64,000 bases of DNA, from positions 1-64,000 of the forward strand of contig CALUVE010000002.1 of NCBI GenBank assembly GCA_944324135.1, given 5' to 3'. Shown here one piece after another: positions 19,676 through 33,099 of the stretch. This DNA comes from Candidatus Gastranaerophilales bacterium (lineage in GTDB: Bacteria; Cyanobacteriota; Vampirovibrionia; Gastranaerophilales; Gastranaerophilaceae). Position numbers and translations under genes: made by a program. The notes under the pieces were generated by a model that worked only from the letters and a program-made list of their open reading frames with translations, did not search any database and was not told where the DNA came from. Each line of letters begins with the position of its first letter. Positions within the stretch are counted from its first letter, which is position 1.

Positions 19676-20029
19676 ATGGTGACAAAAGGTATAAGAGGTG
19701 CTATTACTGTAGATTGCAATACTGATACAGAAATCAGAAGTGCTGTTGTTGAACTGTTAAATGCTATGATTTTGCAGAATGATATTAAAGCCTGTAATAT
19801 TTCGCACGTTATATTCACTCTGACAGAGGATTTGAATGCTGCGTTTCCTGCCAAATTTGCACGTCTTGAACTCGATGGCTGGGATAAGGTTGCTATGATG
19901 TGTTTTCATGAACTCAATGTTCCGAATTCACTTGAAAAATGCCTTAGAGTGCTTATTGTGCTCAACTGCGACGAAAATTTTGAGCCTCAATTTGTTTACC
20001 TCAAAGGTGCGGCAAATCTTAGACGCTAA
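19676..20029 (+). CDS. aroH: Chorismate mutase, AroH type
   Basis: A small trimeric chorismate mutase (117 aa) converting chorismate to prephenate for Phe/Tyr synthesis. The Bacillus AroH pattern is clear: VTKGIRGAITVDCNTDTEI (Arg7-equivalent), LTEDLNAAFPAKFARL, and VPNSLEKCLRVLIVLN (Glu78 and Arg90 equivalents: catalytic ELNVPNS.EKCLRV), ending VYLKGAANLRR. Follows fmt by 12 bp. Its stop overlaps the end of the converging gene by 4 bp. Confidence 0.9.
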   Translation: MVTKGIRGAITVDCNTDTEIRSAVVELLNAMILQNDIKACNISHVIFTLTEDLNAAFPAKFARLELDGWDKVAMMCFHELNVPNSLEKCLRVLIVLNCDENFEPQFVYLKGAANLRR

Positions 20030-22641
20030 GCTTTTGTTATTTCTGATATTGCGGGGTCAAGCAATCTTCTGCCTACGTTTTCAAAGTTGATTGAGCAGAG
20101 CGTTTTGTTGCCGTATTTAATCATCTTTTCTACTATGCCGATACCATATTTCGGATGTGAAACTTTATCACCTTGTTCAAAGGTCTCTGCATTTCCCTCG
20201 ACAATATCAATATTATCTTCTGCCGGATATATCGGAACTATAGGAGTGTCATCAAATTCCGAATCCGCAGTTTCAGCTGTATCTTGAACATTGTTGTTTG
20301 CCGGCGGCAATGTTTCAATTTCATCAGCTGCAACTTCATTATCTTCTGCAGATTGCTCTGCGGTTTGCTCTTCTGCCGGCGCATCAAGATTCAATTCGTC
20401 TATGAAATTCAAATCGTCTTCTGTTAGAGTATCTTCAGTTTTTGCTGCTGCATCTTCAAAATCGTTTAATCCTACATATTTGTTTTCATTTTCCGCAGGA
20501 GCAAGCTCTTCAAGCGTAGCAAAACTGTGGTTTTCTTCTTCTTCAATTACAACTGGTTCTTCCTGTAAATTTTCAGCATCTTCATCGGAAGCAGATGGAG
20601 GATTTTCCGGCTGTTCATTAAATAATGGCTGTTCCTGTTCATCTGCCGGTACTTCTGCAGACGGAAGCTCTTCTATGATAACAGAATTGTCTTCTTCCAC
20701 CGCCTCTTCTTTTGGATACGTAACCTCCGGTATTTCTGATAATGATGAAGTCTCGTCAGGTATATTATGATCTGTTGTATCAGCAGTTGATTCCAGAGCC
20801 AGCTGCTCCTGTTTTTCCATTTCGATTAAATCATCAATTGATGGAATTTCATCTTTTTGGTCATTGTATATGATGTATTTGTCAACATCTTCTGCTGCTG
20901 TATCAGTAATGGTGTTCTGTTCCTGTGATTCTTTTGGAAATGGATTTTGGTTATCAAATATGTTCTGATAAGGATCTTCCGGTAGTGGCTCTTCTATAGT
21001 TATTTCTTCCTGAATTTCAGAAGTTGCAGGCTCTTCTGAAATATCTTCCGGTGTATCTTTTGACGGCGGAAGAATTTCTTCTTCTATAGTAGTGCCGTCT
21101 TCCTGTTCTTCATTAATCACTATGTCGTCATAGGTTTCAACAGGTGCAGACTCTTCTTCCTCAATCGGTTCAAGGCTTTCTTCAGAAAGTTCTTCCCCGT
21201 GAGGTTCTTCTTCTATTATTTGTAAATCATCAGAAGAGTTTTCATTGACAGCTTCAAGAGCATTATCTGCGATGTCGTCAGGCTCATCTTCAAAATCAAC
21301 AGTTATGTGTTCTGAATCTGGCGGTGTCATTATAGGTCTTGAGGCAGCTTCAAGTTCTGCTTGAGCTTTTTCAAACTCTTTTTGTTTTTCTTCTGCAAGT
21401 TGTTTTTCTTCCTGAAGTTTACGTTCAAGTGTGTCAAGTGCTTCAAGTTGCATTGATTGAACTATCAGCGGTATATTCTGGGTAAGTTCACCATAAACTA
21501 TAAATTCATCAGGATTAAGTTTGTTCAGATATGTGTTATAGCTTGCAAAATCATGTTGAACAGTCTGCGGCTGGAACATAATTATATTACGCGCAATTTG
21601 TTTTAATTCTGATATGTATTTGTATTCGTGGCTGCTTATTACTGTGGTGAATACATTTCCCGGAGCATAGAATAATTTTAAGAGCTTTTTATCCGAATTA
21701 GAGTTTGTTACAGGTACAAGGGATATAATTGTTTCCCTCATAGAGTGCATAACTTCATAAATATATTCAATGACCTGTTTTTGCAGTTTAGGGTTTATCG
21801 CTGTTGAAATATCAATTACAGTAGAGATGTTTTTCCCTAAAAATTCTTGTAAACTTTCAAATTCCGAGTAATGATTTGCAAATATATTGTTTTCTTCGTA
21901 TTTTAGAAGCTTATTTTTTAACAAAACCAGCTCGGGTAGTGAAGTTTCAGCATATTGCGAGTTTACAACCTCAATAAATGTGTTGAAAGGAATGTATTTA
22001 TGAGGTGCAGTTTTGGCATATTCCTGAACTTCAAGAAAAATATCCTGAATAACAGCTTTGCTCGTTGCATCTACATCGTCCAGCTCGTTTTCCCAAATAT
22101 AATTTATTGTGTCATAGTTGAGCGGAAGTTTGAAATCTTCAGTAAAAATAAATTTGTCTTCGTGAGTTATGGAGTCATCAATATCACATACAATAACTTT
22201 TTGGTTATTGCGCTGGAGTTGTTTGATAATATTGTTTATTAAGATGTCTGTGTTTTCATTTTTATCAGAGCAAATGAGTAAATCTTTTTTAAGAAGTGTC
22301 TGGTCAAGATTAAGTAAAAACTGCTGTTGAGCCAAAACCCCCATTTTAAGCGGGTTGTTTAACGGAAGAATATCAAGCAGTTCCGGTGACGGAAGATTTG
22401 TCACTACTGCATTCAACGATGGAATAGAGCCGTCATAGTTTGATACTATACCATCAGAGTTAAATGTAAAAATAAGTTTTACGATAGCATAATTGCCGGT
22501 CTCATCGGCTTTCAGATTCATAATTTGAGCCACATAGGGCATGTTTTCGTCTTCTATAATTACAAATCCTGATAGAACAAGGTGTTCATCTGCGTTGAAA
22601 CTTATTTTAACCAGATTGTTTTTTACTTCAAGTATTCTCAT
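20026..22641 (-). CDS. Large acidic protein: HAS-barrel-like N-terminus, long disordered region, CarD-like C-terminal domain
   Basis: Start at 22641 (MRILEVKNNLVKISF) is chosen over 22665 because GAGGAG lies 9 bp before it. Residues ~1-70 (LVKISFNADEHLVLSGFVII) look like a HAS-barrel as in HerA-type ATPases. Residues ~110-390 form an ATPase-like region (LLICSDKNEN..., VIVCDIDD) whose Walker A Gly-Lys-Ser/Thr is missing. A coiled coil (~410-440) leads into ~380 residues rich in Glu/Asp/Pro/Ser. The last ~50 residues, GDKVSHPKYGIGIVEKMIKY onward, form a CarD/TRCF-type or PcrA-tail beta domain that binds RNA polymerase in relatives. It may be a transcription- or DNA-associated scaffold. 871 aa. 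Monocistronic. Confidence 0.6.
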   Translation of the reverse strand: MRILEVKNNLVKISFNADEHLVLSGFVIIEDENMPYVAQIMNLKADETGNYAIVKLIFTFNSDGIVSNYDGSIPSLNAVVTNLPSPELLDILPLNNPLKMGVLAQQQFLLNLDQTLLKKDLLICSDKNENTDILINNIIKQLQRNNQKVIVCDIDDSITHEDKFIFTEDFKLPLNYDTINYIWENELDDVDATSKAVIQDIFLEVQEYAKTAPHKYIPFNTFIEVVNSQYAETSLPELVLLKNKLLKYEENNIFANHYSEFESLQEFLGKNISTVIDISTAINPKLQKQVIEYIYEVMHSMRETIISLVPVTNSNSDKKLLKLFYAPGNVFTTVISSHEYKYISELKQIARNIIMFQPQTVQHDFASYNTYLNKLNPDEFIVYGELTQNIPLIVQSMQLEALDTLERKLQEEKQLAEEKQKEFEKAQAELEAASRPIMTPPDSEHITVDFEDEPDDIADNALEAVNENSSDDLQIIEEEPHGEELSEESLEPIEEEESAPVETYDDIVINEEQEDGTTIEEEILPPSKDTPEDISEEPATSEIQEEITIEEPLPEDPYQNIFDNQNPFPKESQEQNTITDTAAEDVDKYIIYNDQKDEIPSIDDLIEMEKQEQLALESTADTTDHNIPDETSSLSEIPEVTYPKEEAVEEDNSVIIEELPSAEVPADEQEQPLFNEQPENPPSASDEDAENLQEEPVVIEEEENHSFATLEELAPAENENKYVGLNDFEDAAAKTEDTLTEDDLNFIDELNLDAPAEEQTAEQSAEDNEVAADEIETLPPANNNVQDTAETADSEFDDTPIVPIYPAEDNIDIVEGNAETFEQGDKVSHPKYGIGIVEKMIKYGNKTLCSINFENVGRRLLDPAISEITKA

Positions 22642-24840: not shown

Positions 24841-24912
24841 AATTGACTAAAAATGGCAATTTTCGGCTTAAGCTGGTTTTTAATTATATATAAGGTTATA
24901 GTAGGGATAAAT

Positions 24913-27231
24913 ATGCTTAATCAACCAGATTATAAATATAAACCGATATTTGGCAATACTGTTCAGCCCCAGCAGCAGTTTCAGGCTGCCATGCCGGCTG
25001 CGGGTTCTCCTGCTATGCAGGCTGGGCTAGATGCCGAGGCTATAAAAGAAAAAGCTCAGGATAGTTATGTTGCCAACAGAGCCGGTGAGTTTGAAGAAAT
25101 TGACCCATTAAAGCTCTGGGCTGTCGGCCTGCCGGCCTGGTATGTAACCGCTCAGGGTATGGATTTGTTTGCTAAAGCTTCCAGAGGTACTGATTATAGC
25201 AAGACTATTCAGGGAAAAATCGGTAAGTTTGGGGATAAAGTATCGGATATTATTACTGAAAATAAAGTTGCTAAATCCGGTCCTATGCAGACATTGGGCA
25301 GATGGGTTAAGTCTGCCAAAAATTGGGTTGTGAAACAGGCTTTTGACCACAGTGCAATTTTGCGCGGTATGAAAACCCCTACAAGTCCTGAACTTGAATT
25401 TGTTAAATCTCAGGCTAAAGGTATGAGAGGGTTTATCCTGTATGATTATCCGCAGGTTGCCGAAAACTTTATAGATAGGAGTATTCATTCTGTTAAAGAT
25501 TTGGATATGTTCGGGGCTGACAAGGCGTTTATTGATGCTAAGCAGGCTCTTATAAATGGCGGCTCAAGCGCTAAAGAAGTTATCGAACGTGCGCAGTTTG
25601 AACTTTTATCTAAAAATAAAAGTCCTGAAATTATTGACAGGTTTATGAAATTGTCTCCGGAACGCCGTGCGGAGGCTTTGAAAAATATGAAAGCAAGGGC
25701 GCTCGGATATAATAATCTTAAACATTTCAACTCTGTTAAAGACGATATTATTAACAACATTGATGATGTTATAAAGGCTTGTGACAAGGCAAATCCTAAT
25801 ATGTATTCAAAAGTTTGGACCTCTGACAAAAACTGGTGGACCAAATTCAAGGGGCACATAATGGGTCGTCGTGTTTATATGTCTGAGTTCAGAAATAAAT
25901 TGATAAGTGCTATTGGTAAAATGCCGGACGGTACTCCTACACAAAAAACTAAACTCGGTAGATTTTTACCAAAACTGACAAACTATTTCCTTGAGGGTGC
26001 AACTAACCGTGTAGCCGGTGGTAAGTTTGTTGCATTGATGAACGCTACTTTGCTGGCTGATGTTATTATAAGGACTGCTACAGCGGATAAAGGCGACAAG
26101 TTCCAGACTTTCACAGAGCGTCTTGCTGAAATGGTAGGTTTCTTTATTTTCTCCCCGATCGCTTTGAAACTTGTTCATATATTCGGCGGTGCTCAGTATG
26201 CAGGTATCAGCGAAAAAACTTTTGTAAATCTGCTCAAAAAGCTTGACGCTAAGAAAGCTAAGATGAGTGTAGAAAGCTACAATGCAGCTAAAGAAGTTAT
26301 CCTGAAAGCTCAAAATGCGGCAAAATCAGGTAAAAATATGACTGAAGCTTACCGTGAAGCATTCAAGTTCTTTAACGATAAGGCTACTGCTGCTAAATAT
26401 GCTTCAAAAGGCGAATATAAAGCCGCTAAAAAGGCTTTGTCAGGTATTCTGAAAGGTGATACCTGGAATCCTATTACAAAACTGGTTAAAAAGCTTGCCA
26501 GAATTGTGACTGTCGGTATAGAACAGCCTGCTGCTTATCGTACTAAGGCGCTTCATCTGGAGCCTAAATTCGGCTTTAAAAAGGTCGGACAAATGCTCCT
26601 TGATGCATTTAAGCATCCTAAGTACTGGTTGAAACAGGGGTTAGGCTATCCTGTCAGAATCATTGCTGTTATGATGATGGTTATGCCGTTCTTGAATAAT
26701 CTTGGTGTGAAATTTACACACATGATATTTGGCAGACCGTCAAAATCTATTCTTGATAAAGAATCTGACAAACCTGCTGAAGACCCTAATGGTATGACCC
26801 CTCAACAACAGGCAGAGCTTGAAAAATATATTGCTGACTTGAAACATCAGCAGGCTGTTAATAATATGGTTCAGCCTGACTTATCCAGACCTACAAACTT
26901 GATTAATATGGCAACAAACGGTCATCCTTATGTTGAACAACCTACTCCTCAAGCTAAACCGGATTTATCAAGGCCTACTAACCTTTTGAATATGGCATCT
27001 CATGGTCAGATGTATGAAAATAAATTAACTCCTAAACCGGTTGAGCAGCCAGAACAGAAAGAAGAAAAGAAAAAAGATGAAGAATTAGAACCTGTAAGAA
27101 CTTATGTTCCATCTTCTGCACCTGTAAATCTTGCGGGTGTTAAAGAAGATACATCTGCCGTTGATGCAGCGCTGAAAAAGTCAGATGCTGTTGAAAGACA
27201 GGCTATGGAAACTCTTTCAATGAAATGGTAA
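24913..27231 (+). CDS. Large hypothetical protein with C-terminal PDLSRPTNL repeats
   Basis: The ATG at 24913 (GGG ribosome site, MLNQPDYKYKPIFGN) is preferred over 24853, because the extra 20 codons would be encoded by the promoter region (TTATATATAAGG at 24884). 772 aa. After a short Gln/Ala-rich start come mainly helical Lys/Ala-rich regions with hydrophobic stretches near residues 55-75, 390-425 and 630-660. The C-terminal ~140 residues are Pro/Glu/Lys-rich with two copies of PDLSRPTNL(I/L)NMA(T/S). No known domain is recognised. It is divergent to the 54-aa gene and shares its GTAAC box. It could be an envelope or scaffold protein; function not assigned. Confidence 0.6.
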   Translation: MLNQPDYKYKPIFGNTVQPQQQFQAAMPAAGSPAMQAGLDAEAIKEKAQDSYVANRAGEFEEIDPLKLWAVGLPAWYVTAQGMDLFAKASRGTDYSKTIQGKIGKFGDKVSDIITENKVAKSGPMQTLGRWVKSAKNWVVKQAFDHSAILRGMKTPTSPELEFVKSQAKGMRGFILYDYPQVAENFIDRSIHSVKDLDMFGADKAFIDAKQALINGGSSAKEVIERAQFELLSKNKSPEIIDRFMKLSPERRAEALKNMKARALGYNNLKHFNSVKDDIINNIDDVIKACDKANPNMYSKVWTSDKNWWTKFKGHIMGRRVYMSEFRNKLISAIGKMPDGTPTQKTKLGRFLPKLTNYFLEGATNRVAGGKFVALMNATLLADVIIRTATADKGDKFQTFTERLAEMVGFFIFSPIALKLVHIFGGAQYAGISEKTFVNLLKKLDAKKAKMSVESYNAAKEVILKAQNAAKSGKNMTEAYREAFKFFNDKATAAKYASKGEYKAAKKALSGILKGDTWNPITKLVKKLARIVTVGIEQPAAYRTKALHLEPKFGFKKVGQMLLDAFKHPKYWLKQGLGYPVRIIAVMMMVMPFLNNLGVKFTHMIFGRPSKSILDKESDKPAEDPNGMTPQQQAELEKYIADLKHQQAVNNMVQPDLSRPTNLINMATNGHPYVEQPTPQAKPDLSRPTNLLNMASHGQMYENKLTPKPVEQPEQKEEKKKDEELEPVRTYVPSSAPVNLAGVKEDTSAVDAALKKSDAVERQAMETLSMKW

Positions 27232-31110: not shown

Positions 31111-33099
31111 ATGGAAGATAGAAAGTTTGTTATAAACGCAAAGTATAAACCCTCAGGCGACCAGCCAAAAGCCATTGAACAGCTTGTTGATGGTATTAAT
31201 TCCGGATTTGATGCGCAAACTTTGCTCGGGATTACCGGCTCCGGAAAAACTTTTACTATTGCTAATGTTATTGAAAAAGTTCAGAAGCCGACTTTGATTA
31301 TTGCTCATAACAAAACTCTTGCTGCACAGCTTTACAATGAATTTAAGGAATTGTTTCCGGATAACGCGGTTGAATATTTTATAAGTTATTACGACTATTA
31401 TCAGCCGGAAGCTTATATTCCGCGAACTGATACTTATATTGAAAAATCTGCTTCAATTAACGAGGAAATTGACAGGCTGCGTCATAATACTACACGCAGT
31501 CTCTATGAACGTAATGACGTCATTATCATTGCGTCCGTAAGCTGTATTTACGGCTTAGGACTTCCTGAAAATTATTTTAAAGGTTCAGTGGAGATAAATG
31601 TTGGTGATAATATTGACCGCGATGACTTATTGAGACATTTAATCAGCGTTCAATATACAAGAAATGACCTCGTTTTGGAGCGTTCTACTTTCAGAGCCAG
31701 GGGCGATATAGTCGAAATTATGCCGTCTTATGAAAAAATTATTACAAGAGTTTATTTTTTCGGTGATGAGGTCGAAAAAATTGTAAGAATTGATAATGTC
31801 ACTGGTGAAATTCTTGAAACGCCGGAAAAAACGGTTATTTATCCTGCTGTTCACTATATTTCTTATGATGAAAATATAGATGAAACCCTCGGGCTTATCA
31901 GGCAGGAATTGAAAAACAGACTTGCAGAACTTGAAAGTGAAAATAAGCTCATTGAAGCGCAGCGTCTTGAACAACGCGTAAAGTATGATATGGAAATGAT
32001 TAAGGAAATGGGGTATTGTTCAGGCATAGAAAATTACTCAAGAATCATTGAACGGCGTCCGCCGGGTTCTGCCCCTGCTACCCTGCTTGATTATTTCAGG
32101 GGTGATTTTCTCACTGTTATTGATGAATCTCATGTTACTCTCCCTCAGCTAAAAGGCATGAGTCATGGCGATGCTGCAAGAAAGGATGTTTTGATTTCCT
32201 ATGGATTCCGTCTGCCGTGTGCTAAGGATAACAGACCGCTCAGAGAAGATGAATTCTTTGCAAAGGTTGGACAAAAAATTTATATTTCCGCTACCCCCGG
32301 TGATTTTGAACGTAAAACTTCTGAAAGGCTCGTGGAACAAATTATCCGACCTACAGGGCTTGTTGATCCTAAAGTTCATGTACGTCCTATTGATACACAA
32401 ATCCCTGATTTGAAAGCTGAAATCGAAAAACGTACTGCTAAAAACGAGCGTGTACTTATCACTACTCTAACTAAGCGTATGGCAGAGGATTTGACGGATT
32501 ACTTCCTACAAGAGGGGATAAAGGTGCGCTATCTCCATAGTGAAATCCAGTCTCTTGAACGTGTTGAAATTTTAAGAGATTTAAGACTTGGAGAATTTGA
32601 TGTTCTGATTGGGGTTAACCTGCTTAGAGAAGGTCTTGATATTCCTGAGGTTTCACTCGTAGCGATTATGGATGCCGATAAGGAGGGCTTTTTGCGTTCT
32701 GAAACAAGTCTTATACAGACTATCGGGCGTGCAGCCCGTAATGCGTGCGGTGAAGTTATTATGTATGCCGATAAAATTACGGATTCTATGCAAAAAGCAA
32801 TCGACGAAACAAACAGACGTCGTGAAATCCAAATTGAATATAATAAAAAATATGGAATAATTCCGCAAACTATTAAAAAGCCGATAGAGAATAATCTGCT
32901 CTCTCTTGTTGCAAGCTATCGTGACTTAGAAGATATTGTTGCTGAAGAGATGGTTGATATGGGTATCGACAAAAAAGATTTGCCAAAACTTATTGATAAA
33001 TTGGAAAAAGATATGCATAAAGCCGCCAAAATTCTTGATTTTGAACGTGCGGCAGAAATCCGTGACCAGCTCAAAAAGCTTAGAGAAATGGCTAAATAA
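31111..33099 (+). CDS. uvrB: Excinuclease ABC subunit B
   Basis: DNA damage-verifying helicase of nucleotide excision repair. The Walker A is [10 protein letters not shown] (~residue 42). The damage-inserting beta-hairpin region is [20 protein letters not shown], then [13 protein letters not shown]. Helicase motifs DESH ([12 protein letters not shown]) and the C-terminal IGRAARN follow, and the UVR domain ([20 protein letters not shown]) at the end binds UvrC. 662 aa, full length. Its last 8 bp overlap the converging gene at 33092. uvrA and uvrC are not in the window. Confidence 0.97.

Follow-up and report, generated by a model that had tools for sequence, protein, structure and literature searches.

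A conserved Gastranaerophilales protein predicted to combine a degenerate HerA-fold head, an acidic spacer and a PcrA/UvrD-type Tudor tail

The window analysed here, a stretch of 64,000 nucleotides from a Candidatus Gastranaerophilales bacterium (contig CALUVE010000002.1, assembly GCA_944324135.1), a gut relative of the cyanobacteria in the class Vampirovibrionia ('Melainabacteria'), carries on its minus strand a gene, here called X, that begins with an ATG at 22641 and ends with a stop at 20026; a TTG lies in frame 24 bases 5' of the ATG. The genes yqeK and nadD precede X on the same strand, while aroH (19676-20029) is convergent with X and overlaps it by four bases. A 792-aa protein (24853-27231, plus strand) is encoded divergently from nadD, has no Pfam or NCBIfam matches, and occupies the same place in several genomes of family f1 with 29-83% identity. 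The uvrB gene lies 8.5 kb from X. No paper on X was found in the literature. The features of X and of uvrB are as follows.

20026..22641, minus strand: whole gene X, 871 aa plus stop; start and frame kept in relatives
22393..22641, minus strand: X aa 1-83, N-terminal HAS-type beta barrel (AlphaFold2 strands and HerA matches across the head)
21457..22353, minus strand: X aa 97-395, RecA-like HerA core, predicted to be catalytically degenerate (model, Foldseek, hhalign, DUF87 in orthologues)
22240..22275, minus strand: X aa 123-134 (ICSDKNENTDIL), site of the missing Walker A P-loop (hhalign column against HerA GQTGSGKS)
21334..21456, minus strand: X aa 396-436, charged helical neck (model helix at 399-409)
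20188..21333, minus strand: X aa 437-818, acidic spacer of low conservation (composition: 126 D/E, 8 K/R)
20401..20424, minus strand: X aa 740-747, TEDDLNFI, short linear motif of the spacer (in 54/71 relatives)
20227..20238, minus strand: X aa 802-805, VPIY, spacer motif (in 63/71 relatives)
20029..20187, minus strand: X aa 819-871, PcrA/UvrD-type Tudor domain (Pfam, AlphaFold, Foldseek, residue comparison)
31111..33099, plus strand: uvrB, separate gene and candidate docking partner, with a helicase interaction motif, IDNVTGEIL, at about 31789-31815

The open reading frame of X is not a product of chance, because it is matched in all 39 order relatives searched (as pieces only in G023, which is fragmented, and G037, where it is split over contigs), because the copies in these relatives are open frames without internal stops, and because identity remains at 83-89% in the head and 98% in the tail between species in which synonymous sites have reached, or nearly reached, saturation. 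The spacer, with 52-55% identity within the genus, is far less conserved than the head. As judged from these comparisons, both the head and the tail of X are under strong purifying selection, and the three-part architecture of HerA-fold head, acidic spacer and Tudor tail can be regarded as close to certain.

X is a single-copy gene that occurs in nearly all sampled Gastranaerophilales and in three further families of the class. A head-profile search of the class sample recovered it from families f1, f6, f9, f14 and f15, and the search of order relatives added f2-f5 and f7. The same head profile found no X in f10-f13 of the class sample, and in f8 it gave just one marginal match of 57 residues; no copy was seen in one family f1 genome of 99% completeness (G123). 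The photosynthetic cyanobacteria sampled yielded matches to PcrA tails only, and collections of phages and plasmids yielded no matches to X. Among the genomes and libraries searched, the head-spacer-tail combination is thus found only in the non-photosynthetic Cyanobacteria (Vampirovibrionia). The nadD-yqeK-X order is kept only in part of family f1, with ileS, comM-like or unrelated neighbours elsewhere, and because the neighbours vary in this way between families, gene context was left out as evidence. In several families of the order (L046, L048-L050, L198), X and a comM/yifB-like gene are transcribed divergently; at the f9 loci (L073-L084) ileS lies downstream of X and a rarA/mgsA-like gene is divergent, and ileS is near X in f15 as well.

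The first-pass annotation of this DNA proposed an N-terminal HAS-barrel followed by an ATPase-like region that lacks the Walker A lysine, and both elements are borne out by structure prediction, by profile alignment and by Pfam matches in orthologues. The AlphaFold2 model of residues 1-410, computed with 51 relatives in the input, has a mean pLDDT of 90.9 and a pTM of 0.87. When this head was compared with the PDB using Foldseek, HerA subunits filled the top of the list (best match 8zir, E 4.0e-15; Sulfolobus HerA 4d2i, E 1.7e-14), with TM values of about 0.7 by query length. A profile-profile alignment (hhalign) of 13 X heads with three real HerAs extended over 409 columns with an E-value of 1.7e-7. 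A narrower head profile limited to family f1 matched HerA weakly (E 2e-4, 111 columns), and the sequence support for HerA therefore rests on the diverse set of heads. Pfam DUF87, the central domain of HerA, matched seven order orthologues of X at E <= 0.001, six of them above the curated cut-off and the strongest with 40.8 bits against a cut-off of 23.2 (E 2.9e-10); the Pfam search with the window's own copy of X alone gave no matches in the head. As modelled and aligned here, the X head is a HerA by fold. SepF was rejected as an identity for the head: the Pfam match is weak and present in 11 of 51 heads (best E 2e-4), and the 410-residue model fits HerA end to end, such that the SepF match would reflect a local strand-helix resemblance.

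HerA and other DUF87 proteins are hexameric DNA translocases, and the head of X had been described as translocase-like. That description holds for the fold and fails for the motor, since Walker A, the Walker B DE and SQRP are all eroded. The Walker A pattern is absent from the first 500 residues in each of 116 distinct X relatives. In the hhalign comparison the GQTGSGKS of HerA is aligned to CSDKNENT in X, the Walker B DEAH to VTNSNSD with no conserved DE, and the SQRP motif to SSHE. Some unusual form of nucleotide binding or hydrolysis could be imagined from the behavior of D153, which is invariant in all 114 aligned X copies and sits where the DFNGEY/DLHGEY of HerA has its Asp, but with the P-loop and the remaining motifs gone this is extremely improbable. 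F254-A255, N352 and G384 are also near-invariant in X heads, and together with D153 this implies that the fold and some surface have been selected for another purpose. From the aligned motifs, the head of X is no working translocase and is predicted to be ATP-dead. An active HerA encoded in the same genome was considered as a ring partner and rejected, as G000 has no DUF87 matches. A few Gastranaerophilales genomes (L195, L196, L197) do contain real HerA genes with a P-loop beside a SIR2-like ORF, an arrangement that looks like the HerA-Sir2 type of defence pair.

Between head and tail, the acidic stretch previously put at about 380 residues was recovered as a spacer of 382 aa. A coiled coil had also been proposed; the corresponding neck is helical-looking and charged, but this stretch is unconserved beyond close relatives. 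Across 71 relatives the spacer varies in length from 159 to 934 aa with a median of 33% acidic residues, and it carries two short motifs: one resembling TEDDLNFI (0.5 occurrences in shuffled spacers) and one of the form [VIL]P[VI]Y (1.5 occurrences in shuffled spacers), the latter near-fixed about 17 residues N-terminal of the Tudor domain. Much longer copies exist, including a 1385-aa open frame at L042 (G015:C17), due to a much longer spacer, and copies in f15 that reach 1578 and 2158 aa.

The tail of X is a 53-aa Tudor domain, modelled by AlphaFold with block pLDDT values of 81-91. The last 70 residues alone match PcrA_UvrD_tudor (PF21196) with 26.7 bits against a cut-off of 23.9 (21.4 bits, below the cut-off, in full-length X) and CarD_TRCF_RID (PF02559) with 25.4 bits against a cut-off of 23. 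In the Foldseek search of the PDB, the eight best matches are all Tudor domains of PcrA/UvrD, followed by CarD and also Mfd. The earlier assignment of a C-terminal domain of the RNA-polymerase-interaction type therefore stands as a Tudor fold and is revised as to subtype, from the CarD/Mfd RID to PcrA/UvrD. Fold prediction of head and tail together thus returned HerA-type and CarD/PcrA-type folds, as opposed to folds unrelated to either.

In the PcrA of G. stearothermophilus, mutation has shown that H681, W684, K712 and L714 are needed for binding to RNA polymerase (PMC5397179); this numbering was verified on the PDB sequence of that protein. In 115 distinct X tails, the position of H681 is H in 92 and T in 22, that of W684 is Y in all 115, that of K712 is R or K in all 115, and that of L714 is L in 112. 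The loop ahead of K712 differs by one residue in X, so the match to K712 is either R858 or R859 depending on the alignment, both of which are basic. At the level of sequence, the RNA polymerase-binding residues of PcrA appear largely kept in the X tail, with the H partly conserved, and the tail is likely to be a working docking module. CarD was rejected as the first choice for the origin of the tail, given that PcrA/UvrD Tudors provide the eight top fold matches together with matching residues. The C-terminal helical DNA-binding domain of CarD was not found in X, where the Tudor is the last domain, nor was an SF1 helicase core with Walker A, the head being HerA. The PcrA of the window's genome is encoded elsewhere, at C25, and a separate Mfd is present in that genome.

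The Tudor domain at the tail of PcrA binds a beta-hairpin motif, [VIL]DxxTGE[VIL][VILT], which RpoB carries in its SI1 insert and which UvrB also has (PMC8318588), and a crystal structure of the UvrD tail with UvrB is on record (7egt). In the eight X-bearing genomes, the strict motif is absent from the short beta2/SI1 region of RpoB, where near-matches occur only outside SI1 (LVNRD[TS]GEIK(EQ) in beta1 and DGRTGE near the C-terminus). UvrB has a [TS]GE hairpin in every one of the eight X-bearing genomes and the strict motif in five of them. When the whole genome was searched at the DNA level for the pattern, six sites were returned, against one for a reversed control, and among the six only UvrB and an MnmE-like protein have the strict nine-residue form. 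With an RpoB that lacks the SI1 motif and a UvrB that has it, UvrB is ranked over RNA polymerase as the partner. It should be noted that the motif in UvrB is not specific evidence for X, because it is expected to serve PcrA anyway, and that the claims made here about the partner are drawn from motifs and from published work in Bacillus, Geobacillus and Escherichia.

The reading preferred here, with a probability of roughly 0.4, is that X acts in repair by docking on UvrB, its dead head serving as a platform. X would be an ATP-dead scaffold of HerA fold that is brought to its partner by the PcrA/UvrD-type Tudor tail, which would bind a TGE beta-hairpin (the 'helicase interaction motif'), with the one in UvrB as the most probable target. 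At sites of nucleotide-excision repair X would then join PcrA or compete with it. The head, perhaps still an oligomer, may serve DNA or another protein as a platform without motor activity, while the long acidic spacer may give reach and present its two short motifs to further partners.

The same tail may instead act on RNA polymerase, in line with the first-pass annotation, which suggested a tether to transcription or repair machinery. The Tudors of CarD, Mfd and RapA bring their proteins to transcription complexes, and X could similarly take a dead HerA head there through beta1 or another site on the polymerase. In B. subtilis and E. coli, RNA polymerase is indeed bound by Tudors of PcrA/UvrD (PMC5397179, PMC8318588), the PcrA interface residues are largely kept in X, its tail comes closest in structure to CarD and Mfd after PcrA/UvrD, and beta1 of RpoB offers the near-match LVNRD[TS]GEIKEQ. 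Docking on RNA polymerase is nonetheless rather unlikely, as the SI1 hairpin recognised by PcrA is missing from RpoB in all eight genomes and the PcrA tail of B. subtilis protected only the SI1 region of the polymerase and not beta1 (PMC8318588). The partner could also be a lineage-specific protein other than UvrB and RNA polymerase, in which case X would work elsewhere, for example in replication, in chromosome handling or at the cell envelope. Similar motifs elsewhere in the genome, including LDELTGEVI in the MnmE-like GTPase, would allow for this, and the neighbours of X (nadD-yqeK, ileS, comM-like) give no particular direction; nothing found here speaks positively for a partner of this sort, and it is considered quite unlikely.

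A further alternative concerns PcrA itself, for which X could be an antagonist that blocks helicase interaction motifs or a substitute that took over docking from a PcrA that had drifted. When PcrA tails of the order (L213-L218) were compared with others (L219, L220), the RLL or KLL of the interface was found to be KAM/KAV in the order, whereas X keeps [KR]RLLDP, and the W/F of the interface is L in three of the four family f1 tails examined. In the tail tree, the PcrA tails of Gastranaerophilales sit on a long branch of their own, and in B. subtilis a free PcrA tail displaces PcrA when expressed (PMC8318588). Against this, f9 and f14 hold X beside canonical PcrA tails, and the tail tree, which separates the tails of X from those of PcrA, is poorly resolved, its 52 columns being compatible with one origin or two. 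The drift in the PcrA tails hints at a division of docking sites between X and PcrA, or at a contest over them, but an outright antagonist or substitute is distinctly improbable. A bolder version of the scaffold idea is possible, though on the doubtful side: a whole lineage may have turned the HerA motor into a non-hydrolysing scaffold, ring-shaped or monomeric, with a PcrA docking tail, that would act as a dedicated hub, vying with the helicase for UvrB (or RNA polymerase) and thereby rewiring repair or transcription coupling where RNA polymerase lacks the SI1 hairpin.

X is a conserved protein, so far unnamed, whose probable role is to keep a protein of repair or transcription in position. 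Should the tail dock as predicted, X would clearly exemplify both the conversion of a HerA motor into a scaffold and the re-use of the PcrA docking module outside a helicase, and the sharing of UvrB by repair helicases and their rivals, in a lineage whose RNA polymerase lacks the SI1 hairpin, would become testable.

Several known systems share parts of this architecture. With HerA/DUF87 proteins (Sulfolobus HerA 4d2i, HerA-DUF4297 8zir, Sir2-HerA) the X head has in common the HAS barrel and the RecA-like core, and the two are collinear over the 409 aligned columns. Unlike HerA, X has lost all three catalytic motifs (Walker A, DE of Walker B, SQRP); its head is about 150 residues shorter, the acidic spacer and the Tudor are additions, and the neighbours of X that were inspected show no recognised NurA, Sir2 or DUF4297 partner gene. 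The Tudors of PcrA/UvrD (5dma, 6yi2, 7egs, 7egt, 9dqs) share the fold of the X tail, which when isolated exceeds the PF21196 cut-off, and a long disordered linker precedes the Tudor in both. In PcrA/UvrD, however, the Tudor is carried on an SF1 helicase and in X on a predicted dead HerA head, the W of PcrA is replaced by Y, and the RpoB of the X lineage is without the SI1 motif. The RID of CarD and Mfd (TRCF) likewise shares the Tudor fold, though PF02559 is barely above its cut-off and the structural match is weaker than that to PcrA/UvrD; X has neither the C-terminal helical domain of CarD nor the helicase of Mfd. A precedent for dead helicase-type binding modules is provided by the catalytically inactive P-loop domains of the DndH/PglZ defence proteins (PMC10853773, PMC12839542). 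Those proteins are derivatives of SF2/SF3 helicases that reside in defence islands, whereas X is a core chromosomal derivative of HerA.
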